Shown here piece after piece: positions 1 to 30,325 of a stretch of 30,325 nt of DNA. The stretch comes from an uncultured Collinsella sp. Lineage in GTDB: Bacteria; Actinomycetota; Coriobacteriia; Coriobacteriales; Coriobacteriaceae. The notes under the pieces were generated by a model. That model saw nothing but the letters and a program-made list of their open reading frames with translations, searched no databases and was not told the origin of the DNA. Where the stretch lies: assembly GCA_937969105.1 (NCBI GenBank), contig CALBUZ010000035.1, forward strand, positions 1-30,325. The letters are read 5' to 3'. Numbering within the stretch: position 1 is the first letter of the stretch; the number at the start of each line of letters is the position of its first letter. A program made the position numbers and the translations under genes.

Positions 1-187
1 TACTCGGCAGCAGCAGTAGGTCCACACGGTGGAATACGGCACGCGGTCACGGTTGGTGTATTCCAGCATATTTATAAACTCTGTGGTTTGTCTACCTAGA
101 GTATTCAACATTGGATTGTACAATAATCCAACATCTCAATTCAATACATCAGCAACAATTTAATCTACTAATTTAATACTTAAAAAA
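1..187. other. Leader region upstream of the susC-like gene
   Basis: No gene can be called with confidence here. The first 66 or so bases are clearly more GC-rich than the AT-rich 100 bases just before the receptor gene. On the minus strand a frame opens with ATG at 69 and runs off the left edge (23 codons, beginning MLEYTNRDRVPYSTVW). It could be the start of a divergent gene, but it is too short to identify. The AT-rich stretch from about 67 to 187 is typical of a Bacteroidales promoter and leader. I found no clear pair of Bacteroides -33/-7 boxes and no Shine-Dalgarno sequence, and the latter is often missing in this phylum. Confidence 0.3.
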
Positions 188-3100
188 ATGAGGAAACATT
201 TATTATTTTCCGTAATGCTTAGTCTGTGTGCTATGGGTGGCATGATGGTGTATCCCACACCTGCTATAGCTACCGTGGCACAATCTCCGGCTATCAAGGT
301 TCGCGGTCAAGTTATCGATGAACAAGGTGAGCCCTTGACAGGAGCTACTGTCAGAATTAAAGGAGGACAAGGTGGAACCATTACCGATGTGGACGGAAAC
401 TTCCAACTGGAGGTTGCCGGAAACGCTATCCTTTCGATAAGCTATGTAGGCTACAAGGAACGCGAAGTAGCCGTTCGTAACCGCGCTATCATTGAAGCCA
501 TCCAATTGCAACCCGACAACCAGATGCTGGAACAAGTTGTTGTCATAGGTTATGGCACACAAAAGAAATCCGATTTGACCGGTTCTGTAGCTGTAGTAGA
601 CACGGAAGCCTTGAAACAGACATCCCATTCCAATATCTCCACCATGCTCGAAGGTAAAGTATCAGGCGTACAAGTCACTTCCGACGGGCAGCCCGGTGCC
701 GACCCTACCGTCCGTATCCGTGGCGTCGGATCTTTTGGTGACACTTCTCCTCTTTATGTTATCGATGGTGTCCCCATGGGTACTTCCATCCGCGATTTCT
801 CTTCAAACGATATTGAAACCATCCAAATTCTGAAGGATGCATCGGCTGCTGCCATTTACGGTTCGCGTGCAGCCAACGGTGTGGTCATCATCACTACCAA
901 ACGCGGTCAGAAAGACCAACCGCTGAAAGTAGACTACAATGGGTACGTAGGTATGGACTACATTCCCAGTAGTGTCTATGACGTAATGGATGCCGACCAA
1001 TACAGCCAGTACATCGGTCAGGCATGCGCCAACTCCAACACTCCGCTGCCCGGCGGTTACAAGCTGGACAGTACCACCGGAAAATATCATTTCCAGGATA
1101 ACACCAATACCAACTGGTTTAAAGAAGTGTTCAAAACAGGTATCCGTCAAAATCACAATGTGAACCTCTCCGGTGGCGGTGCCCACAATACTTATAACGT
1201 TTCATTAGATTACTACAACCAGAAAGGTACACTGGAAGGCGCCGGTCCCAACTACGAACGTTACACGGCGCGTGTCAACAACACGATGGACACCAAATTC
1301 ATCAAGTTCCATACCAGCCTGGTTTACTCTCACTCCGATCAAGACAACATGGGTTTGTCAAACGCTTCCGAATACGTTCAAGGTCTGTATGGAGACGTAA
1401 CCAACATACTGCGTGGTACTTTGCTGATGCAACCCACCATCAAAGCCTACGACAACTCTACTTGGGTACTTGACAATCTGGTAGGGATCGCCAATAACTT
1501 CAACTATGACTCTTATGGTTATGGTGTTTACTACGACACCGTACATGGTGACATTTCAGCTTCCAACCCCTTGCTGGTCAATAACCTGTTAAAGCGCAAT
1601 ACCCGTGTAGACCGCTTTGTAGGAACAGCCTCTGCCGATGTGGATCTCCTGAAAATGATCGGTATTGACAGCAAAAACCACAAGCTCAACTATAAAGTCA
1701 ATCTCTCTTACAGCAAAACCCATTGCAAGGACTTCACCTGGATTCCTGCATGGGTACAGAGCAACCGTGTCTATCTGGCCAAAAGCAACGAACGTCTCAC
1801 CAAAGCTACCCGCTCTTATGCCGATGCTTTGATTGAAAACGTGCTGACTTATGATGCCACCGTCGGCAAACACCATTTTAACCTGGTAGCCGGCCAGACT
1901 TACGAAGAAGAAAACACCGACTTGCTGACAGGCTGGGGCGTCAACTTCACCGAGCCTTACTTCCTGCAACTCCAGAATGCCGCCAACACTTACGCTGAAA
2001 GCTTCGAATACAAACACACCCTCCTATCCTACATCGGGCGTATCAACTACAACTACGACGAGCGTTATCTGTTCTCGGCAACCGTGCGCCGCGACGGCAG
2101 TTCCCGCTTGTCCCAAAATATCCGTTGGGGCACCTTCCCTTCTGTTTCTGTGGGATGGCGTTTCGACAAGGAGTCTTTCTTCCCCTTCAACAGAAACATT
2201 GTCAACATGTTCAAGGTACGTGCCAGCTATGGCGAGCTCGGTAACGAAAACATTGGTGAATACATGTATCAGGCTGTAATGGCACGTAATAACATGACTT
2301 ATAGCTTTGGCAACACGCCCATCACCGGTTCTGCCATTTCCACTTTCGTAGACAACAACCTTTCTTGGGAAAAGAAGAAAAGCTACAACGTGGGTATCGA
2401 CCTCGCCTTGTTCAACAACCGTCTGGAATTCACTGCCGAATGGTACAAGAACACCAGTGAAGACCTGCTTTATGCTGTTCCCGTTCCCGAACAAGCCGGT
2501 GTATCCAATACCACCGTAACAATGAACGCCGCTTCGATGAACAATTCAGGTTTCGAATTTGCAGCTACTTACCGCAACCGAGACCACGACTTCAAGTATG
2601 AAGTGTCGGCTAACTTAAGTACTGTCCGTAACCGCGTAACCTCATTGGGCTTCGGTACCGATTCATACATCTCCGGCGCCTACATCACCAACGTAGGTGA
2701 AGAGATCGGCAAATTCTACGGATGGGTTTATGATGGCATCGCCCGCACACAAGCTGACTTGGACAACCATGCCACACAAGAAGGCGCCCAAATTGGTGAC
2801 TGCCTCTATAAGGACGTAAGCGGTCCCGACGGAAAGCCTGACGGAAAGGTAGATGCCAATGACCAGGTAGTATTGGGCAGCGGTATGCCTAAGATCAATT
2901 TCGGTTTGAACGCCCGCTTCGAATACAAACGTTTCGACCTGAGCATCGCTACGTTCGGTGCACTCAACTATCATGTTAGCGACGACATCCACAACTCTCT
3001 GAACTCTTGCTATGGCTGGGGCAACAAAGACGTAGCCATGCTCGACGCCAATCGCTTCAGCGAAGACGGCAGCACCTATCTTTCCAGCGTACCACGTACC

Positions 3101-3397
3101 TATGTCACCAACAGTGCCAGCCTGGCCTGGAACGATCTCTTCAGCGACCGCAAAATTCAGAACGCAGCTTATTGGAAAATTGCCAATATAGAACTGGGCT
3201 ACAACTTCCCCAACGAATGGTTTGGCAAATACGTATCGGATGTACGTTTCTACGTGTCGGCACAGAACCTGCACACCTTTACCGGCTACAAAGGTTACAA
3301 TGTGGACTATGCAGGAGGTACCTTCACACCGGGATATAACTTCTGTTCTTATCCTACCGCACGTACCTTCATGTGTGGCGTTCATTTCACTTTCTAA
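188..3397 (+). CDS. SusC/RagA-type TonB-dependent outer-membrane receptor
   Basis: This 1069-residue protein has the SusC layout. A signal peptide of about 28 residues ends near PTPAIA. A carboxypeptidase-regulatory-like beta domain follows at roughly 37-105 (VRGQVIDEQGEPLTGATV, then DVDGNFQL and SYVGYKE). Next come a TonB-box and plug start (VVVIGYGTQKKSDLTGSV) with the plug motif AAAIYGSRAANGVVIITTK near 220-240. The rest is a long aromatic-rich beta-barrel ending in the terminal phenylalanine usual for outer-membrane barrels (GVHFTF). SusC proteins import glycans or peptides across the outer membrane using TonB energy, with a SusD lipoprotein lid, and the next gene is susD-like. Length is normal for the family. 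The substrate cannot be read from sequence. Codon use and GC match the first 3.6 kb and differ from everything to the right. Confidence 0.96.
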   Translation: MRKHLLFSVMLSLCAMGGMMVYPTPAIATVAQSPAIKVRGQVIDEQGEPLTGATVRIKGGQGGTITDVDGNFQLEVAGNAILSISYVGYKEREVAVRNRAIIEAIQLQPDNQMLEQVVVIGYGTQKKSDLTGSVAVVDTEALKQTSHSNISTMLEGKVSGVQVTSDGQPGADPTVRIRGVGSFGDTSPLYVIDGVPMGTSIRDFSSNDIETIQILKDASAAAIYGSRAANGVVIITTKRGQKDQPLKVDYNGYVGMDYIPSSVYDVMDADQYSQYIGQACANSNTPLPGGYKLDSTTGKYHFQDNTNTNWFKEVFKTGIRQNHNVNLSGGGAHNTYNVSLDYYNQKGTLEGAGPNYERYTARVNNTMDTKFIKFHTSLVYSHSDQDNMGLSNASEYVQGLYGDVTNILRGTLLMQPTIKAYDNSTWVLDNLVGIANNFNYDSYGYGVYYDTVHGDISASNPLLVNNLLKRNTRVDRFVGTASADVDLLKMIGIDSKNHKLNYKVNLSYSKTHCKDFTWIPAWVQSNRVYLAKSNERLTKATRSYADALIENVLTYDATVGKHHFNLVAGQTYEEENTDLLTGWGVNFTEPYFLQLQNAANTYAESFEYKHTLLSYIGRINYNYDERYLFSATVRRDGSSRLSQNIRWGTFPSVSVGWRFDKESFFPFNRNIVNMFKVRASYGELGNENIGEYMYQAVMARNNMTYSFGNTPITGSAISTFVDNNLSWEKKKSYNVGIDLALFNNRLEFTAEWYKNTSEDLLYAVPVPEQAGVSNTTVTMNAASMNNSGFEFAATYRNRDHDFKYEVSANLSTVRNRVTSLGFGTDSYISGAYITNVGEEIGKFYGWVYDGIARTQADLDNHATQEGAQIGDCLYKDVSGPDGKPDGKVDANDQVVLGSGMPKINFGLNARFEYKRFDLSIATFGALNYHVSDDIHNSLNSCYGWGNKDVAMLDANRFSEDGSTYLSSVPRTYVTNSASLAWNDLFSDRKIQNAAYWKIANIELGYNFPNEWFGKYVSDVRFYVSAQNLHTFTGYKGYNVDYAGGTFTPGYNFCSYPTARTFMCGVHFTF

Positions 3398-3704: not shown

Positions 3705-4673
3705 CTAGTACTGCTCGATGCCCATGTAGCGACGAACCTCGGGGCTGTGGTCGAAGACCTTGCCGCGGGCGGCGCGCAGCTCGCAGCTCATGTTGTAGAA
3801 GAAGATCGGCTCCAGGAACGAACGCACGCTGGCAGGCACCTCGCCCACGCCGTACTCAAGCGCGTCGAGCACCATGACTGTATCGGTGTGCGTGTTGAGG
3901 AACGCAAGAGCGCGCTCCTCCATGGGGCGGCACTCGCCCGCGCCAAGCTGCACAAAGTAGAACACGCCGGGCTCGGTGGCCTCGAAGGGACCGTGGAAAT
4001 ACTCGCCGGAGTGGATGTAGCAGCAGTGCTGCCACTGCATCTCCATGAGCGAACAGATGGCCATGGCGTAGGTCTGGCTAAAGTTGGGGCCGGAGCCCAG
4101 GATATAGAAGAACTTGTGCTGCTGGCAGAGCTCGGCAAAGCGGGCGCCCAGCTCGGCGTTGACCTTCTCGCGGGCGGCGGGCAGCAGCGCATCCATCTGC
4201 TTGAGGCCCTCGTACATGTCGGCGAGCGCCTCGTAGCCTTCCTGCTGGTCGAGCAGTTCGGCGGCGATCAGAGCGCCGATGCCCTGCGGCACCTCGGCCT
4301 GCGGCACGCCCTCGCCCCAGGGGTAGACCCAGGTAGTCCACTTGCCGTTGTCGATCTTGGAGCCCTCGCAGTCGGTGAGGGCGACGACCTCGGCGCCGGC
4401 AGCCAACGCCATCTCGCAGCCGTCGACGACCTCCTGCGTGTTGCCGCTGTGGCTGCAGGCAATAACGAGCGACTTTGGCCCTAGGCTCTTGGGGACCATC
4501 AGGCAAAACTCGCGTGCCGTGTAGACCGTCGAGGTAAACGTGGTGGCCTCGCGCTTGAGCAGCTCGTTGGCCGGCATCAGGTCGATCATCGAACCGCCGC
4601 AAGCGATCCAAAAGACATTCTCGATCTTGCCCTTGCGCTCGATGATTTCCTGAACCAGATCATGTGCGTTCAT
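3705..4673 (-). CDS. SIS-domain sugar-phosphate deglycase, FrlB-like (SIS-A)
   Basis: The 322-residue product has two SIS folds. The first contains the phosphosugar-binding segment SHSGNTQEV (74-82). The second contains HSGEYFHGPFE (221-231), the FrlB/GfrF-type active-site motif with its Glu and His, and the protein ends DHSPEVRRYM, which resembles the FrlB C-terminus. Such enzymes split 6-phosphorylated Amadori products such as fructoselysine-6-phosphate into glucose-6-phosphate and the free amine in the cytoplasm. The ATG at 4673 follows AAGGAGGA by 8 bases. It lies 144 bases after gntR-A on the same strand, so gntR-A is the likely regulator. No PTS gene adjoins it; its substrate may enter through the PTS at 12-14.7 kb or one outside the window. 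Exact substrate is unknown, and a different sugar-amine phosphate is possible. Confidence 0.85.
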   Translation of the reverse strand: MNAHDLVQEIIERKGKIENVFWIACGGSMIDLMPANELLKREATTFTSTVYTAREFCLMVPKSLGPKSLVIACSHSGNTQEVVDGCEMALAAGAEVVALTDCEGSKIDNGKWTTWVYPWGEGVPQAEVPQGIGALIAAELLDQQEGYEALADMYEGLKQMDALLPAAREKVNAELGARFAELCQQHKFFYILGSGPNFSQTYAMAICSLMEMQWQHCCYIHSGEYFHGPFEATEPGVFYFVQLGAGECRPMEERALAFLNTHTDTVMVLDALEYGVGEVPASVRSFLEPIFFYNMSCELRAARGKVFDHSPEVRRYMGIEQY

Positions 4674-23900: not shown

Positions 23901-24542
23901 GGTTTGGCCCGTTGAACTCACCATGCGGCGTATGCGGTCGATCTCGTCGCCAAAGAACTCGATGCGTACGGGCGCCTTTTCCTGCGCGGGATACACCTCG
24001 ACGGTGTCGCCGTGCACACGGAACAGGCCGGGCGCGTCGGCGGCGCCGGCATTGGTGTAGCCCATGCCCACCAGACGCTGCGGCACCTCGTCAAAGGGAA
24101 TCTCCTCGCCCACCGCAAAGGTCGTGGACTCCCAGTAGTGGCTCTCGACCGGCGGCACACAGCGCAGCAGCGCGCGAGCCGAGGCGACCATGATGCAGTT
24201 GTCGCCGCGCACGATGCGTCCCAGGGCCTCGCAGCGCTGGGCCACCACGGCGTCGTCGGGCGCCTGCTCGCGCCACGGATAGTCCTTGCGCTCGGGAAAA
24301 CGACACACGTGCGCCAGGCCCACATAGGCGGCCAGACTGCGTGCGGCGCGATCGGCCGCATCCTCGCCACTCACGATGTAGACCGTGGGGCGCGGACGAC
24401 GCGCAAACTGGGCGGCGGCCATAAGCGTTCGGCCCGACTGAGACACGGCCAGCGTCACGTCCTCGCCAGCATCGAGCCCGGCCTCGACGGTCTGTAGCGC
24501 TTCGGCAGTGTAAAGCTGCGCGGCTATACGGTGAATGAGCAT
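20910..24542 (-). CDS. mfd: Transcription-repair coupling factor Mfd
   Basis: The 1210-residue product has the complete Mfd architecture. A UvrB-like N-terminal region (about 20-400) is followed by the CarD-type RNA-polymerase interaction domain at about 527-590 (FKPGDYVVHATHGIALFSEI and LYVPLEQVDRITRYVG). The RecG-like translocase has Walker A GDVGFGKTEVA near 680 and the DEEQ box (IIDEEQRFG) near 780, with the TRG-type segment including IRGAGSLMGAEQHGN. The C-terminal TRCF domain closes it. Mfd removes stalled RNA polymerase from DNA lesions and recruits UvrA. ATG at 24542 is preferred because GGAGGAA lies seven bases upstream; an in-frame ATG 27 bases earlier lacks such a site. The length is slightly above the roughly 1150 usual for the family, partly from an Ala-rich stretch near 460-480. 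Confidence 0.97.
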   Translation of the reverse strand: MLIHRIAAQLYTAEALQTVEAGLDAGEDVTLAVSQSGRTLMAAAQFARRPRPTVYIVSGEDAADRAARSLAAYVGLAHVCRFPERKDYPWREQAPDDAVVAQRCEALGRIVRGDNCIMVASARALLRCVPPVESHYWESTTFAVGEEIPFDEVPQRLVGMGYTNAGAADAPGLFRVHGDTVEVYPAQEKAPVRIEFFGDEIDRIRRMVSSTGQTIGNEDSIEIFPCRELALTDEAVHNMHVALYRASQDDSKLAALLEMVDARIVTPELDRFLPVMYGQTVSPLSHVSGKALVVLSEPRSLFDDCLRAYEDIEARAGEAGVDRLDGLYVRAQQLDFGSQQRLNYVSLIRAGGAVTAELKIEQPAIAGSDNRFMTRIQEVVGKRYACVFAIPDRGARESMELTFGDEGITFEESLTAAPENAGVIGERVRVAAADSADRAARQEAHASIRERKADALNARSLEAGAAQAAAGAAVPTISRGRVTFVDAALPQGVVVPDANFAVFSIADLNARMDANRARSRRKVDITQITFPFKPGDYVVHATHGIALFSEIARQEVGGKERDYFLLEYADGDKLYVPLEQVDRITRYVGPDGDKPRLTRLNTADWTRATNKARKNAKKLAFDLVDLYTRRSSITGIACPPDTPEQIEMEESFPYDETRDQLEAIADIKADMEAPKPMDRLLCGDVGFGKTEVALRAAFKCVDSGRQVMVLCPTTILAQQHYETFFERFAPFGLEVEVLSRFRTPAQQKRALKAFAEGTIDVLIGTHRLLSADVNPKNLGLVIIDEEQRFGVQHKEQLKNLREQIDVLTLSATPIPRTMQMATSGVRDMSLITTPPTGRRPVIVHVGEYDPDVVSAAIRLEVGRGGQVYYVSNRVKTIDDAVARVHEAAPEARVGVAHGKMSPREVEDVMIEFATKKIDVLIATTIVESGIDNATANTLIIEDSQRLGLAQLYQLKGRVGRSATQAYAYFMFPGELPLTEEATARLTALSEFQDLGSGMRIAMRDLEIRGAGSLMGAEQHGNLSSVGFDLFTQMLGQAVAEARGDDDAGVEAASVGINLPADYFLSEEYMPAVDQRVLVYRKLAAAEDLESIDEVQEETEAAHGELPLAGLNLFNRARIRIRGERLGLESVTLSGGRITFLGVEVPKKVAFELKTRYGAVNFPKSRKLSVPYKAGAGAGSGLGRGLDANDGTGPVAAALMLLQQLGASDDD

Positions 24543-24567
24543 GCTGTTCCTCCGGCATCGCAACGCC

Positions 24568-24619
24568 AAAAGCCCGCCGGGGCAAGCTCGGCGGGTCGTA
24601 CGTCAAAGATCATTGACGT
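24568..24619 (-). terminator. Terminator-like hairpins in the mfd leader
   Basis: Reading leftward toward mfd, AACGTCAA/TTGACGT (24600-24606 with 24613-24619) forms one hairpin. Next, CCCGCCG and CGGCGGG (24589-24595 with 24573-24579) form a second, followed by CTTTT (24568-24572). It ends only 26 bases before the mfd start. It could be an attenuator of mfd, or the end of a short upstream transcript. The rest of the 321-base gap to the FHA gene shows no gene. Confidence 0.5.
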
Positions 24620-24804
24620 TTATGGTACCGCACGGCCCCGTGACCAAAAGCCAAAGCGACATCATGCCAAATGTTGCCCACAACGGTCTTGCTAACGCGT
24701 TTTCCCAGCTTATTAATCCGCTCTCCGCTTTTTGATTTGCTGTCTTCCGGCAGCGATTTACACCGTCCGCGCCCCCTGGCGAGCATTTCGAGCTGCAAAG
24801 CGCC

Positions 24805-24810
24805 TATAAT
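24805..24810 (+). promoter_or_regulatory. -10 box for the first FHA gene
   Basis: A perfect TATAAT lies 53 bases before the ATG at 24864. No recognisable -35 is at 16-18 bases, so activation may need another factor. Confidence 0.45.
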
Positions 24811-24863
24811 TGACCATGCTTACGTATTCAATGTCACTTTTGAGGAGGGGGGGGGTAAAACAA

Positions 24864-25820
24864 ATGGCCGACACTCCATCTTGTGCACTGTACGCCGGGC
24901 TTAAGTCACTCGGTCGCATCAACAACGGTAACGCCGCGCAAATTCTCATAGCCGGCAACGCCCGTTACGGTGGACGCCTCATCTCCGAACGCTTGACGGT
25001 CCCGTCGTTTATCTCACGCGAAATCGTTCACGCCAAACCCGGTGACCTTCCCGAGCCGCTGTTTGCGCCCTTTGAACAAAGTGCGCGCCAGATACTCAAC
25101 CTCATCATGCAAAACCGAGGCTCCGACCCCCAATCGCTGAGCAAGGTCGCTAAACGCTATATGGAGTCGTGCGTCCCAGACATGCAGGATGCCCTTATCA
25201 ATTGCGGCGTCGACGGCATGCTCTTTAGAAACGGCGTCGAGCGCATCGAGACCGCTGACGATAGCGACATCAAAGATCGCCTCTACATCCATCTGGTCTT
25301 TTTTATCGTTACCGGCTGCCTTGGCGACCCCGCCCGCGCCATCGAATACACCGAGTCCTTTGTGTCCGACCAGATGCTCTCGACGCTTGGTACGGTCGAG
25401 ACGACCGTCACCTCATTCTTCTCGACAACCGCGCGCCCCACGGGAGACGTTCGCCTGGGACTGCTGCGCGTCGTGGGCAACTCGGCACGACCGCCGCTGC
25501 GTCCCCTTACCACGGACCCGATGGGCAGCATTATCGGGTCACTGACTGGCGACGGGAACGCCATCACCGACGTCGATTCCGATGTCTCGCGCCAGCACCT
25601 GCGCATCTGGTTCCAAGACGGACGCTGGCTTGCGCAGGGCCTCGACTCCACCAACGGATCGTTTTTGATCTCGGGCGTCGACCGCTGCCGACAGGCTATC
25701 GAACCGCCCAGACGCGAGCGCTCCGTCAACTTTGCCAACACCCCCGTCGAGATTCACAACGGAGACACGCTTTGCTTGGGCGCCACGACGCGTTTTTTGG
25801 TCATTCGCATCACAGACTAG
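24864..25820 (+). CDS. FHA-domain protein, first copy (FHA-1)
   Basis: The 318-residue protein has an FHA domain at about 215-318. The phosphothreonine-binding residues are present: Ser and His in DVSRQHLRI and Asn-Gly in DSTNGSFL. The first 200 residues are mostly helical and match no family I know. They include INNGNAAQILIAG, FISREIVHAKPG, TGCLGDPARA and LGTVETTV, all with counterparts in FHA-2. No signal peptide or membrane helix is seen, so it is cytoplasmic. ATG at 24864 follows GAGGAGGGGGGG; an upstream ATG at 24810 lacks a site. A strong terminator follows, so it is its own transcript. It probably reads phosphorylation by the kinase encoded next; that is inferred from linkage and from what FHA domains bind. 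Confidence 0.88.
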   Translation: MADTPSCALYAGLKSLGRINNGNAAQILIAGNARYGGRLISERLTVPSFISREIVHAKPGDLPEPLFAPFEQSARQILNLIMQNRGSDPQSLSKVAKRYMESCVPDMQDALINCGVDGMLFRNGVERIETADDSDIKDRLYIHLVFFIVTGCLGDPARAIEYTESFVSDQMLSTLGTVETTVTSFFSTTARPTGDVRLGLLRVVGNSARPPLRPLTTDPMGSIIGSLTGDGNAITDVDSDVSRQHLRIWFQDGRWLAQGLDSTNGSFLISGVDRCRQAIEPPRRERSVNFANTPVEIHNGDTLCLGATTRFLVIRITD

Positions 25821-25844
25821 TCTGCCCACACATCTTCGACGCAC

Positions 25845-25890
25845 AAGGTGCCGTTATTTGCATTAACCTCTGCAAATAACGGCACCTTTT
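25845..25890 (+). terminator. Terminator between FHA-1 and the kinase gene
   Basis: A perfect 18-base stem (25845-25862 with 25871-25888) over an eight-base loop is followed by TTTT. The stem end AAGGTGCCG and the loop TTAACCTC are distinctive. It lies 24 bases after the FHA-1 stop. Confidence 0.88.
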
Positions 25891-25963
25891 CAATTAAGAC
25901 AACGGTTGCGCTACCTTTTGACTAACATTATTGCTATGCATTTTTTCTCGAAAGGATCGCCCC

Positions 25964-27973
25964 GTGACGTACGACACGAACATGGATATCATTGCGTTGT
26001 CCCCCTTTGAACCAAACCCCATGTTTGCGACCACCGAAGACTCCGATACCATTCGCCGCTTTACCACCCTGTTGGATTGCGGGGCAGTCGGCGGCGGCTC
26101 CCACCATCTTCGCAAGGTCGCCAACACCGAGGGCGAGACCTTTGCGCTCAAGACGTTGTGGCCCCTCAGCGGCTGCGATGAAAACGGCTCCGCTGTCAGC
26201 CCCTCGGGCATCAAGACGCTCACCGAGGAGTATCGCAATCTTGCAGTCGTCTCACTGTTGGGCGGCTTTCCCAAAACCTATGGCTACGGTTATGCCGGCA
26301 ACACACCGGTCATCCTTATGGAATGGATTGAAGGCCTGCCCCTTCGCGATGCCGCGGCAGAGCTAACCGACCCCGCCGAGGGCGGCCGCATTCCCGCAAA
26401 CACCGTCGCCGCAATCGGAAAACGCCTGGGAGAGATCCTCCTGAGTACCCAAAAGCTCGATGCACCTTTTGTGCACCGTGATATCTCCTTGCGCAACATC
26501 ATTATTCGAACGACGCGCCGGCCCCTTGCCCAGCAGATTACACACTGCAGTTTTGACCTTTGCCTGGTCGATCTGGGCAGCTCGAGCATCAAGCGCTCAG
26601 ATCCCTCGTTTACCATGTCCACCGGCATCTGGCGCAACGGCACCCCCGAGTTCGCCCCGCCTGAGATGCTCTCCAACGACATCCCTGAGCTGGCGCCGCT
26701 GCGCACGTCGCCCAGTATCGATACATACGAGCTCTGCAGCGTGCTCTACACGCTCTATGCCGGTCACACGCCATATCGCCTAAACGAGCATATGGACCAG
26801 TCGCCCTACCTGTACAAGATCGAGCACGAGCCCGAGCTGCTCGAGGCGCGCCTACCCGGTGACCAAAAGCTTGTCGATGTCATCATGAGTGGCATCCATA
26901 ACGAGCAGTCCCAGCGCGCGCCGCTGTCTACGATTGTCGGCAAGCTCGATGCCTGGATTAAAGACATCGATTTTGAGCCGCGCACGCCGCTGCCCGCACC
27001 TGTCGACGTTAGCCTGCAACCAAAGGCTTCCGGTTCCGACAAGGCTCAGACGCGCCACCCGGTCATCTCGCGTCGCACTGCGCTCGCGCTCGGCGGCGTC
27101 TGCGTTGCCGGCATCGCAGCTTCCGCCATTGCCACGGGGTGCTGGGGGCTTATCGACTTGGCGCACGGCATCAAGCCGTCACTCGACGATTACACCTGGG
27201 AAGAACTCGCCCTGATCTCCCGTAAAATCCAAGAGACATCTTCCAACAAAAAGGCGCTCGCGATTGCCGAAACCTACCACCTGGTAAACAGCAAGCAGTC
27301 GCTCGAAAACGAGAACACCAAAACCGTCAGGCTTTCCGATGGGACCAAGGCACAAGTCCAGATCGTGGGCTTTAAGGCAGACACGTTCACCGATGACGGC
27401 CTCCCCGCTGGCATCACCTTTATGTTCCGTACCCCCATCGCCATGCGCGCCGTAAATGACAGCGCTGCGACGGGTGGCTGGGAGCAATCGTCGCTTCGCG
27501 AATGGTTGGCAGACGAGGGCATGGCTACGCTGCCCGACGATCTCCGTAATCAGATCCGCTCGGTGCGAAAGCTCACCAACAACACCGGCGGCACCAAAGA
27601 CGCCTCCAGCATCACCGCCACCGATGACAAGCTGTGGCTGCCGTCCATGAGCGAGCTGTGCGGCTATCAGGCGCCTGAAACGTTCGCAGACGGCTACGGA
27701 TACCTTTCTGACCTCTACAGCGGAGAAGGCGAACAGTACCAGCTCTATCGCGAGCAGAGCGTAAGCAGTCTGACCACCAACGACGCCATGATCCGCACCG
27801 TCGCCGGCAAAAAGATCTGCTACTGGGAGCGCACCCCCAGCGCCGACTGCAGCGAGGGCGCCAACTCGACGTACTTTAACCGCGTTGGAAAAGACGGCGA
27901 CGTGTTTAGCTGGGCAACGCCTGGAAACGATCCGGACCAAATGACCTATGTCCTGCCCGGCTTTTGCATCTAA
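25964..27973 (+). CDS. Membrane-anchored Ser/Thr protein kinase with DUF6273-like C-terminal domain
   Basis: The 669-residue protein begins with a kinase domain (about 35-340). It has a glycine-rich loop GAVGGGSHH (40-48), the ATP lysine in FALKTL (Lys63), catalytic loop HRDISLRN (Asp173, Asn178), a metal-binding DLG in place of DFG (Asp203) and an APE-like FAPPEM. All catalytic residues are present. One hydrophobic helix at about 370-402 (TALALGGVCVAGIAASAIA) follows a basic segment, so the C-terminal 265 residues are probably outside the membrane. They end in a DUF6273-like domain (WEQSSLREWL, LWLPSMSELCG, CYWERTPS). I chose GTG at 25964 because AAAGGA lies seven bases upstream; a TTG 33 bases earlier and an ATG at 25982 are less likely. 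The second FHA gene follows after 35 bases. The outer domain may sense a signal; this is inference. Confidence 0.88.
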   Translation: MTYDTNMDIIALSPFEPNPMFATTEDSDTIRRFTTLLDCGAVGGGSHHLRKVANTEGETFALKTLWPLSGCDENGSAVSPSGIKTLTEEYRNLAVVSLLGGFPKTYGYGYAGNTPVILMEWIEGLPLRDAAAELTDPAEGGRIPANTVAAIGKRLGEILLSTQKLDAPFVHRDISLRNIIIRTTRRPLAQQITHCSFDLCLVDLGSSSIKRSDPSFTMSTGIWRNGTPEFAPPEMLSNDIPELAPLRTSPSIDTYELCSVLYTLYAGHTPYRLNEHMDQSPYLYKIEHEPELLEARLPGDQKLVDVIMSGIHNEQSQRAPLSTIVGKLDAWIKDIDFEPRTPLPAPVDVSLQPKASGSDKAQTRHPVISRRTALALGGVCVAGIAASAIATGCWGLIDLAHGIKPSLDDYTWEELALISRKIQETSSNKKALAIAETYHLVNSKQSLENENTKTVRLSDGTKAQVQIVGFKADTFTDDGLPAGITFMFRTPIAMRAVNDSAATGGWEQSSLREWLADEGMATLPDDLRNQIRSVRKLTNNTGGTKDASSITATDDKLWLPSMSELCGYQAPETFADGYGYLSDLYSGEGEQYQLYREQSVSSLTTNDAMIRTVAGKKICYWERTPSADCSEGANSTYFNRVGKDGDVFSWATPGNDPDQMTYVLPGFCI

Positions 27974-28008
27974 CACCTTCCCCGGATACCAGAAAGGAGC
28001 CTCGCATC

Positions 28009-28998
28009 ATGCGTGCGGAAACACCTTCCGAGGTGCTCTTTGATTTCCTTAAGTGCGACCTGCAGATCAACAATCGAGAAGCGGCGCGCATCCTGATTTC
28101 GGACAAGCCGATGGGCTCCAAACCGGCCCCACGATTTCGCATTGCAGAAAAGACGTTTCTATCGCGACGCGTGGTGCACGTCGTTCCGGGCACCGACAAG
28201 ATCGACCCCGAGATGTTTGCCGATTTTTCGCAGAGCGTCCAGAGCTTGGCTGCCGCTGTAAAAATCGGCAGTGGCAGCAGTCCAACGGCCGCCAACGCTC
28301 GCCAGCAAGCCATTACGGCGCATGCCCTCGAGCGCATGGTAACGTCGCTCGAACACTGGGGGCTCGATGGTTCCATCCTGCGCAATATCTTTGACCGCAT
28401 CGCCGTCATGCCTGGCCTCAAGCAAAGCGACCGGCGCCTTTTGGAGCTCCTTGCGCTAACGGTCTGCGGATGCCTGGCCGATCCCAATGCCGCCGCCTCC
28501 GAGGTCAAAGACTTTGCTATAACGCAACTGTCCCAGACCTTTGGCACGCTCGAGACCGCCGAGGTCGTCCAGGCGCGAGGCACTAACCGCAAGGTCAACG
28601 AGCCTCCTGCAAAACTGGGGCTGCTCAGGCTTGCGAAAGACGGCTCGGCCTTGCCGCCTATCTATCCTTTGAGCCTCGATCCCGAGGGTACGGTACTTGG
28701 CTCTTTTGCACACGACCAAAACGCCATCACCAACGTAGGACCCGATGTATCCCGTCGGCACCTGCGTGTAGCGTTTTCCAACGACACATGGCTCGCAAGC
28801 GGCCTGCACTCCACCAACGGAACGGTGCTGGTGACACGCAGTGGCGCGACCACCGTTATCGAAAAGCCACGCTCGCTGCGCACCGCTGGCGATGAGGATA
28901 AGCAGATTCCCATCCACGACGGCGACTTGCTCAAGCTGGGTTCCTCGACCCAGTATTTGGTGCTGAAGATCTCCTCAAACGTACGAGCGCTGGCCTAG
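28009..28998 (+). CDS. FHA-domain protein, second copy (FHA-2)
   Basis: The 329-residue product is a full-length paralogue of FHA-1. The FHA domain at about 220-325 has DVSRRHLRV and HSTNGTVLV with the conserved Ser, His, Asn and Gly. The N-terminal region shares INNREAARILIS, FLSRRVVHVVPG, CGCLADP and FGTLETAE with FHA-1 at equivalent places. It is soluble, with no signal peptide. AGAAAGGAG lies nine bases before the ATG, and the gene is 35 bases after the kinase stop without a terminator, so the two are co-transcribed. It may bind phosphothreonine on the kinase or on a shared target. Two copies around one kinase suggest distinct outputs. Function of the N-terminal region is unknown. Confidence 0.88.
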   Translation: MRAETPSEVLFDFLKCDLQINNREAARILISDKPMGSKPAPRFRIAEKTFLSRRVVHVVPGTDKIDPEMFADFSQSVQSLAAAVKIGSGSSPTAANARQQAITAHALERMVTSLEHWGLDGSILRNIFDRIAVMPGLKQSDRRLLELLALTVCGCLADPNAAASEVKDFAITQLSQTFGTLETAEVVQARGTNRKVNEPPAKLGLLRLAKDGSALPPIYPLSLDPEGTVLGSFAHDQNAITNVGPDVSRRHLRVAFSNDTWLASGLHSTNGTVLVTRSGATTVIEKPRSLRTAGDEDKQIPIHDGDLLKLGSSTQYLVLKISSNVRALA

Positions 28999-29027
28999 GG
29001 CCGAGCTCACACAATAAGAATCAACGC

Positions 29028-29070
29028 AAAGGGGCGCCGCTGCACACATCGCAGCGGCGCCCCTTTATAT
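29028..29070 (+). terminator. Terminator after the kinase-FHA-2 operon
   Basis: A perfect 16-base stem (29028-29043 with 29051-29066; core GGGGCGCCGCTGC) and a seven-base loop, followed by a short T/A run, lies 29 bases after the FHA-2 stop. Confidence 0.82.
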
Positions 29071-29114
29071 CGCGTGGACATCTAAAAACGGATGCAGAAG
29101 CCGAAAAATTCAAC

Positions 29115-29164
29115 AAGATAACTAAAACATAAAAGCCGCGTGGGGGTCGGGTCCACACGCGGCT
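29115..29164 (-). terminator. Terminator of the surface-protein gene
   Basis: On the minus strand AGCCGCGTG (29156-29164) pairs with CACGCGGCT (29134-29142), followed by TTTTATGTTTTAG. It lies 45 bases beyond the stop at 29210 and faces the terminator of the rightward FHA-2 operon. Confidence 0.78.
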
Positions 29165-29209
29165 ATCAGGTTTGGGCTAATAAAGCCCGGAGGTAAACAC
29201 TAGTAGAGT

Positions 29210-30325
29210 TTAGTGCTCGCGACGCTTGGTCATGTACATGCCCACAGCGACAGCCACGGCGCCGGTAAGGGCGGCAGCAGAGGTCACAACGAAGGTCGGA
29301 TCGCCGGTAGAAGCAAGGGCGGCGTCGTCCTTCTTCTCGGCCTTAGCCTCGTCCTTCTTACCAGCAGCAATCTGCTTCTTGCCCTCATCCTTCTTCAACG
29401 TCTCGGACTTGGGGGTCTTAGCGGTAAAGAAAGCGTAGACAGTGGTGTCCTCAGTGATAGGAGTAGAGAAGTCAAACTTCTTGAAGGACTCCTTGGAAGA
29501 AGACCAGCCGACAAAGTTGAAGCCGTCGACGGAAGGATCGCTGGGCTGAGCAACAGTCTTACCGTCCTCGACCTCAACCGTAGTGGTGGAACCATCAACA
29601 TAGAAATTGACCTTGTGGGTCTGGACAGCAGGCGTCTCGTTCTTGGTCCACTGGGCGTAGAACGTCACGTGGTCGCCGCCGCCCTGGACGGGCTTGGTGA
29701 AGTCGACCGGCTCGGTGCCCTCGGAGTCGTAGGTCCAGCCGGCGAAGGTGTAGCCCTCGCGGGTCGGGGCCAGGGGCTGGCGGGCGACGCCGTCGGAATC
29801 AGTAACGCCCTGGAGCGTCACATTACCGTCGAAGAATACACCGCCGTTGGCGAAGTAGAGGACATCCTTGACGTTCTTGTTCTCGTCAACGTCAGCTCCC
29901 TTGTCCTCGGTCCACTGGGCGAACAGGGTAGCATGGTCGCCGCCGCCGACCAGCGGCTTGCTGAAGTCGACGGGATCGGTACCCTCGGAGTCATAGGTCC
30001 AGCCGGCGAAGGTGTAGCCATCGCGGGTCGGGGCCAGGGGCTGGCGGGCGACGCCGTCGCCGTCGGTCACGCCCTGGAGCGTCTCGTTGCCGTCGAAGAA
30101 CGTGCCGCCGTTGGCGACGTAGAGGACGTCGATGGAGTTGTCCTCGACGACCATGTTCCACTGGGCGAACAGGGTGGCGTGGTCGCCGCCGCCGACCAGC
30201 GGCTTGCTGAAGTCGACCGGGTCGTTACCGTCGCGGTCGTAGGTCCAGCCGGCGAAGGTGTAGCCCTCGCGGGTCGGGGCCAGGGGCTGGCGGGCGACGC
30301 CGTCGCCGTCGGTCACGCCCTGGAG
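29210..30325 (-). CDS. Sortase-anchored surface protein with InlB-type repeats, 5' end missing
   Basis: The frame is open from the right edge to the stop at 29210, giving 371 residues of the C-terminal part; the start lies beyond the window. It contains four repeats of the Listeria-Bacteroides (InlB B-repeat) type. Three are close copies with REGYTFAGWTYDSEGT, VDFSKPLVGGGDH and LFAQW; the last is more diverged (VDGFNFVGWSSSKESF). A Lys/Glu-rich spacer follows (about 295-330), then LASTGDP, a hydrophobic helix (AALTGAVAVAVGMYM) and the basic tail TKRREH. This is a cell-wall sorting signal of the LAxTG type used by class E sortases in high-GC Gram-positives. The protein is probably displayed on the cell surface; ligand or adhesion role is unknown. 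Confidence 0.9.
   Translation of the reverse strand, partial: LQGVTDGDGVARQPLAPTREGYTFAGWTYDRDGNDPVDFSKPLVGGGDHATLFAQWNMVVEDNSIDVLYVANGGTFFDGNETLQGVTDGDGVARQPLAPTRDGYTFAGWTYDSEGTDPVDFSKPLVGGGDHATLFAQWTEDKGADVDENKNVKDVLYFANGGVFFDGNVTLQGVTDSDGVARQPLAPTREGYTFAGWTYDSEGTEPVDFTKPVQGGGDHVTFYAQWTKNETPAVQTHKVNFYVDGSTTTVEVEDGKTVAQPSDPSVDGFNFVGWSSSKESFKKFDFSTPITEDTTVYAFFTAKTPKSETLKKDEGKKQIAAGKKDEAKAEKKDDAALASTGDPTFVVTSAAALTGAVAVAVGMYMTKRREH
29640..30325 (-). repeat. Tandem coding repeats in the surface-protein gene
   Basis: Units of 82 and 88 codons (about 246 and 264 bases) repeat with near-identical DNA over long stretches. For example, GGCGTAGCC-like leader differences are few and the segments encoding VARQPLAPTR(E/D)GYTF recur at about 29755, 30030 and 30265. 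The window ends inside a further copy. Such identity favours unit gain and loss, and can break assemblies. Confidence 0.8.

Follow-up and report, generated by a model that had tools for sequence, protein, structure and literature searches.

Genes of the FHA-kinase-FHA locus

Here, we describe a locus at which a gene for a receptor-type Ser/Thr kinase lies between two genes for FHA-domain proteins (FHA1 and FHA2), at positions 24,864 to 28,998 of a 30,325-nucleotide stretch of DNA from an uncultured Collinsella sp. (assembly GCA_937969105.1, contig CALBUZ010000035.1). The whole of this stretch is referred to as the window. FHA domains are the textbook bacterial readers of phosphothreonine, and an FHA protein encoded beside a kinase is therefore normally read as the reader beside its writer. 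The comparisons below support a conserved, dedicated unit of the kinase with one FHA protein, in a family that has almost throughout lost the arginine that anchors the phosphate. The genes and hairpins of the locus are as follows.

24864..25820 (+), FHA1 gene, 318 aa, Pfam FHA
25845..25888 (+), hairpin 3' of FHA1, likely terminator, 18 bp perfect stem (z -9.2)
25964..27973 (+), receptor kinase gene, 669 aa, GTG start, Pfam Pkinase and DUF6273
28009..28998 (+), FHA2 gene, 329 aa, layout as in FHA1
29028..29066 (+), hairpin 3' of FHA2, likely terminator, 16 bp perfect stem (z -9.7)

All three genes are open frames on the plus strand of Collinsella-like DNA and carry the expected Pfam domains, which confirms the block as an earlier note on this DNA had described it. 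Gene starts were picked at spots resembling ribosome-binding sites. An identical gene order, at 93-96% identity, is found in one other assembly, Collinsella sp. WCA1-178-WT-3 (genome G001, locus L042; L021 and L042 are apparently one record), and the block is therefore not an assembly accident. The kinase and FHA2 genes are separated by 35 bp. FHA1 had been credited with its own promoter and terminator. The terminator is matched by the hairpin at 25845-25888 (+); the promoter found no support, since a scan of positions 24500-29250 was no better than shuffles (one promoter-like site versus 1.5) and its single site lies inside the kinase start.

Both outer proteins exceed the Pfam cut-off for FHA (E-values 5.6e-7 and 2.6e-5), and the domain is modelled as an FHA beta sandwich. 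The parts of FHA1 are the following.

aa 1-174 (+), helical N-terminal domain of FHA1 (model, pLDDT 89.8)
aa ~175-195 (+), disordered linker of FHA1 (model)
aa 196-318 (+), FHA domain of FHA1 (Pfam and model)

FHA1 and FHA2 align with 36% identity over 321 columns (E 9e-61), so the earlier description of the two as paralogous over their whole length holds. The view of the N-terminal 200 or so residues as unassignable also stands: the helical domain is confidently predicted, and the family and structure searches gave no known family or PDB fold among the matches listed. At seven of its positions (14, 43, 47, 52, 56, 127 and 139), 96% or more of the 85 aligned members described below have a basic residue, FHA1 itself having Pro at position 47. 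In the tree, FHA1 falls in a nine-row set (support 96/97) that excludes FHA2, and FHA2 lies in the other half on a long branch (1.67). Since they are not sisters, the two look like separate partners and not like one recently doubled reader. Their placement suggests that FHA2 joined as a second partner, or diverged, early and is not a fresh copy. Recent tandem doubling was rejected on the same grounds, with the proviso that a branch of this length may be misplaced through long-branch error.

Conservation and co-divergence of the kinase-FHA pair

Relatives of the locus were sought in a set of 58 related genomes and in a genus set of 43 genomes (E 1e-30). With FHA2 as the query, relatives were found in 32/58 genomes. 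The kinase query matched 37/58, 31 of them through the kinase domain and six through DUF6273 alone, and all 31 genomes with a kinase-domain match also carry the FHA family. The two genes lie close together: an FHA match stands no more than 3 kb from 45/47 kinase-domain matches, and conversely 45/55 FHA matches have a kinase match at this distance or less, so the FHA genes do not occur without the kinase in most relatives. A further set of 30 loci, mostly fetched after a class-wide search, has a family FHA frame in 29; a kinase frame is present in 23/29, each with its nearest FHA gene less than 1 kb away. Among the loci from other genera (L083-L104), 19/22 have a kinase frame. The earlier note had asked whether the triple is conserved. 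Two FHA genes flanking one kinase were found only in G001 (1/58 relatives, 1/43 genus genomes), and the triple was thus rejected as the conserved unit; what is conserved is the pair. Locus L096 has a second FHA gene, at a distance of 6 kb.

The FHA family is present in at least 46/197 genomes of the class and at least 12/396 genomes of the phylum, all 12 belonging to the same order as G001; the class search scored no more than 11 candidates per genome and the phylum search no more than five. Relatives are common in sequence collections, where the largest clusters reach 432 members for FHA2-like and 6476 for kinase-like sequences. The initial gene maps were built from greedy longest frames, and some genes were miscalled (such as in L048, L049, L055, L057 and L058). 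Counts in the later set and the pairs used for co-divergence were based on homology instead.

If the kinase and FHA proteins form a unit, the two are expected to have diverged together. The pairwise distances of FHA proteins and kinases are correlated with r 0.954 and 0.952 (19 pairs), a value reached in 0/2000 permutations. Because they nearly duplicate L042, the window rows were left out; of the two FHA rows of L042, one was then dropped as well. The association also holds within each of two gene layouts: r was 0.87-0.89 for nine pairs of single-span systems (layout A; 0/2000 permutations), 0.85 for an eight-pair set of the same layout (2/2000), and 0.96 for eight pairs of four-span systems (layout B; 0/2000). 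Genome relatedness adds to these correlations. Both layouts can co-occur in one genome (G001: L042 and L043), and within a genome the A and B paralogues track their respective partners, which argues against relatedness as the sole cause. The proposal that kinase and FHA protein form a dedicated unit is thus supported by the pairing counts and by co-divergence.

In layout A, the FHA gene usually stands ahead of a kinase with one membrane helix and either a C-terminal DUF6273 domain (the window, L099, L103 and L106) or WG repeats (L047, L049, L052, L101 and L105). Layout B starts with a one-helix protein of about 300-365 aa, followed by a kinase whose C-terminal part has about four membrane helices and then usually by the FHA gene. 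The C-terminal parts of the kinases have been swapped among systems: DUF6273, WG repeats and four membrane helices. The one-helix protein of layout B had no Pfam match in the three examples scanned, and is perhaps a separate outer sensor. Those of L043, L045, L050, L054 and L057 are related, and in several loci they overlap the kinase's longest frame by four bases.

No other gene family occurs near the pair in more than 5/21 sources, and the neighbours give no common target. At the window locus, the divergent gene upstream of FHA1 carries Mfd domains. Beyond the second hairpin, a gene convergent to FHA2 (29210-30325, minus strand, cut by the window end) is surface-protein-like, with four Listeria-Bacteroides repeats and an anchor-like C-terminal hydrophobic stretch with a basic tail. 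The statement that no secretion or cell-wall gene is adjacent was thus not quite right in its cell-wall part. Zinc-ribbon-like cysteine pairs occur in proteins near some pairs (L051:951-2861, L051:7641-8276, L047:10722-11771 and L052:10228-10815); the Pfam zinc ribbon matched only L051:951-2861, and the other three were judged by eye and similarity. Some relatives have broken copies: an in-frame stop interrupts the FHA match at G022:C23, G023:C74 and G035:C24, and the L059 and L093 kinases and the L108 FHA gene are split into two frames. Either decay or sequencing error fits these cases. At the far end of the window, from position 1 to about 3500, lies a SusC/TonB-dependent-receptor-like gene (Plug and CarbopepD_reg_2, 188-3397). 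It has no match in 21 relatives at 1e-10, and this end has 47-49% GC versus 56-65% from position 4500 on. An outer-membrane gene of this type in Collinsella-like DNA probably marks a chimeric end of the contig, or else foreign DNA.

Loss of the phosphate-anchoring arginine beside intact kinase motifs

In the Gly-Arg motif, it is the arginine that makes the principal contact with the phosphate, as established by work on Rad53 and related FHA domains. Both window proteins have serine in its place.

25536..25541 (+), Gly225-Ser226 of FHA1, canonical Gly-Arg position with Arg replaced by Ser
28699..28704 (+), Gly231-Ser232 of FHA2, Gly-Arg position with Arg replaced by Ser

We aligned 83 database proteins with the two window FHA proteins. 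In the resulting 85 rows, the glycine of the motif is kept in 85/85 and the arginine is absent from 85/85, being replaced by Ala (58), Ser (23), Thr (3) or Asp (1). Among genome rows, arginine is found in 0/32 readable rows (of 33) and, in a second set, in 1/29 readable rows (of 31); the 85-row alignment and these two sets share some members. As a control, non-family FHA domains in L043, L050 and L056 keep the arginine in 6/6. This control is a motif pattern: of 15 sequences outside the earlier family list, nine in family-fetched loci were counted as family, leaving six. The claim that the two FHA proteins are readers of phosphothreonine therefore conflicts with the loss of the arginine (0/85; 0/32; 1/29). 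GarA and OdhI are the precedent for an intramolecular phosphothreonine tail. We rejected a tail of this kind here: the invariant Thr4-Pro5 opens the helix at residues 5-17 of the model, and a helix cap is thus the simpler reading.

The kinase lies between the two FHA proteins with its catalytic motifs in place, and the following parts were recognized.

26300..26923 (+), protein kinase domain, aa 113-320
aa 171-178 (+), catalytic HRDISLRN, by motif reading
27068..27076 (+), Ser369-Arg370-Arg371 ahead of the membrane helix, a motif like that of twin-arginine translocation (Tat)
27077..27136 (+), predicted single membrane helix, Gly/Ala rich, aa ~372-391, from hydropathy only
27446..27862 (+), DUF6273 domain, aa 495-633

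The Pfam Pkinase score is 33.2 bits versus a cut-off of 31.7. The lysine, the alpha-C glutamate, HRD..N, D-L-G and P-P-E are all present, as in Hanks-type kinases, and judged by these motifs the window kinase looks active; relative L029 has YRD instead of HRD. With a single helix after the kinase domain, DUF6273 would be placed outside the cell. In phage proteins, DUF6273 has been modelled with a fold like that of C-type lectins (PMC10743442), which fits a ligand-binding outer domain. Family kinases with no membrane helix after the kinase domain were also seen (L094, L095, L097, L098 and L040, the last cut by a contig end).

An unexpected feature is the sequence directly ahead of the helix. 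From 36 distinct kinases, 14 were picked by hand as single-span, with one helix followed by 250 aa or more (in L103, a further hydrophobic stretch is present). Ser/Thr-Arg-Arg precedes the helix in 13/14 and Arg-Arg in 14/14, the exception to Ser/Thr being L052 (H-R-R-R-K-F). The Tat consensus is SRRxFLK (PMC7317946). Phe stands at its consensus place in 8/14; in the window kinase (S-R-R-T-A-L), this residue is Ala. Among the non-kinase proteins encoded at these loci, Ser/Thr-Arg-Arg precedes 5/398 internal hydrophobic stretches and 5/75 near the N-terminus, at least one of which is a split kinase's own helix. No Ser/Thr-Arg-Arg was found ahead of the first helix of the four-helix kinases. The single-span kinases thus have a Tat-like motif ahead of a moderately hydrophobic helix, and Rieske proteins are a known case of internal Tat helices (PMC5449189). 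The positive-inside rule would also predict a pair of arginines on the inner side, and the motif is therefore a strong hint and not proof. TatC is found in 55/58 relatives, and its presence is therefore not discriminating.

A proposed dedicated FHA partner, its alternatives and known systems

We propose that the locus encodes a Ser/Thr kinase of receptor type and a cytoplasmic FHA protein dedicated to it, which docks without phosphothreonine and whose N-terminal domain is the output or a substrate, with a second partner in this lineage. We hold this reading with middling confidence: it may prove wrong about as readily as right. In this scheme, the outer DUF6273 domain would sense a ligand, and the kinase would receive the signal through the single membrane helix. 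The FHA partner would bind its own kinase directly, via an FHA surface that has become independent of phosphothreonine, in a manner that may resemble the docking of EssC/YukB FHA domains on the EssB/YukC pseudokinase. The conserved basic helical N-terminal domain would then act as the output or be the kinase's substrate. FHA2, encoded behind the kinase and evolving faster, would give one receptor two alternative partners. In Escherichia coli, the pseudokinase domain of YukC is copurified with the FHA region of YukB, whose phosphate-binding residues are not conserved (PMC9600267); EssC requires its FHA2 to recruit EssB (PMC9436818). The absence of phosphothreonine residues from EssC/YukB FHA domains is also a subject of PMC11217815. 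A kinase-paired FHA family without the phosphate-anchoring arginine makes FHA domains as fixed kinase partners directly testable.

A bolder version, tentative and in our view rather doubtful, adds the export route: the kinases would be a Coriobacteriales receptor class in which a folded ligand sensor is exported by Tat via an internal twin-arginine helix and a private FHA partner binds the kinase free of phosphate, the window version having two competing partners. If the Tat-like motif works, it would represent an unusual route of receptor-kinase assembly, and these kinases would form a new class among the internal substrates of Tat.

Several observations weigh against a dedicated partner that docks without phosphate. 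In the S-x-x-H and N-G motifs of the family, Ser (85/85), His (85/85) and Asn (73/85) are kept, which is odd if the pocket was wholly abandoned; FHA1 and FHA2 hold all three. The single genome row with arginine, the divergent member L102:5901-6860 (IGR), comes from an 11 kb locus in which no kinase frame is present, and is possibly the ancestral phosphate-reading form. The pairing is not universal: for 10/55 FHA matches, the nearest 3 kb contain no kinase match (seven of the ten are partial, two come from contigs shorter than 9 kb, and one, G007:C28, is full length), and 6/29 loci of the later set lack a kinase frame. In three loci (L049, L054 and L090) the FHA and kinase genes are on opposite strands, and the pair is therefore not always one operon. 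The 19 pairs behind the correlation include near-identical ones (L044, L059 and L060). As for the precedent, EssB is a pseudokinase, whereas the window kinase looks active, and one study that used pull-down and two-hybrid assays reported no partner for the EssC FHA domains (PMC4925161).

The strongest alternative is the canonical one, in which the kinase phosphorylates its own or other threonines and the FHA proteins read them, another residue having replaced the arginine. We regard this as unlikely, though it deserves to be kept in view: the arginine is missing throughout the family alignment even as the non-family domains retain it, and no constant substitute appears after the conserved Ser, where the residue varies (Gly 37, Ala 35 and Arg 7 of 85).

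PknH controls EmbR in mycobacteria, where the gene of this receptor Ser/Thr kinase stands beside that of an FHA protein, and EmbR consists of a winged-helix DNA-binding domain, a BTAD and an FHA domain. By analogy, the helical N-terminal domain of the FHA proteins could be a transcription factor that binds DNA under control of the kinase. The seven conserved basic positions would suit this role, as would a weak MerR helix-turn-helix match somewhere in the protein in 6/85 members (best E 0.013), and the EmbR structures 2ff4 and 2fez are among the matches of the full FHA1 model. When the model of the N-terminal domain was searched alone, no winged helix was among the listed matches. We consider this explanation improbable.

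Membership in a type VII secretion system (T7SS), resembling the T7SSd variant, is very improbable and was rejected. T7SS variants often contain FHA proteins together with a kinase and a phosphatase, and in Olsenella and Bifidobacterium the T7SSd variant comprises the membrane kinase TsdD and an FHA-bearing ATPase (PMC11217815). However, WXG100 exceeds the cut-off in only 5/58 relatives (G002, G022, G023, G028 and G056; 18/58 at E 0.001) and has no match in the nearest genome, G001, and only 3 of the 32 genomes with the FHA family overlap with these five. No FtsK-type ATPase was found among the window frames scanned, the search being confined to these, and the FHA domains of T7SSd reportedly retain their phosphothreonine motif (PMC11217815), unlike those of this family. 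An anti-phage defence kinase system is hardly credible and was rejected as well: the kinase matches PADLOC models such as PD-T4-6 (E 3e-11) and mad6 (E 1e-9), but all 12 matches fall within aa 27-362, the kinase domain, and FHA1 and FHA2 match none of 5027 PADLOC models at 0.01.

We found no description of the kinase-FHA pair in the open-licence literature, and its likeness to known systems is partial in each case. PpkA-Fha1/TagH, the posttranslational switch of the type VI secretion system (T6SS), shares the kinase-FHA pairing. No T6SS genes were found in the window frames scanned, to which the T6SS search was limited, and TagH identity was rejected: FHA1 scores 12.6 bits against NCBIfam TIGR03354, far below the cut-off of 120.25, and FHA2 has no match. 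With PknH-EmbR, the locus shares a receptor kinase gene beside an FHA protein with an N-terminal non-FHA region, but for the window FHA proteins no winged-helix or BTAD match is listed.

TsdD/TseD of T7SSd/e are membrane kinases with an outer C-terminal region, found in Olsenella, and TseJ of T7SSe has a DUF6382-FHA layout. They differ in having a reportedly helical outer region and a T7SS gene cluster, and TsdC is reported to have retained the phosphothreonine motif (PMC11217815); here, the outer part is DUF6273 or WG repeats, with no T7SS genes among those scanned. Actinobacterial Rieske proteins share a twin-arginine motif ahead of an internal, weakly hydrophobic membrane helix (PMC5449189). 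In these, earlier helices are Sec-inserted and the exported domain binds a cofactor, whereas in the window protein a soluble kinase domain precedes the helix and the outer domain has no known cofactor; the word 'kinase' does not appear in the text of that study.

The closest precedent is the EssB/YukC and EssC/YukB pair of T7SSb. The window system differs from it in that the kinase motifs are intact, the FHA domain belongs to a small soluble protein whose N-terminal domain is helical, and no WXG100 was found in the nearest genome. In both, an FHA domain without phosphothreonine-binding residues faces a membrane-anchored protein of kinase fold, and in T7SSb the contact is reported to be independent of phosphorylation (PMC9600267, PMC9436818).
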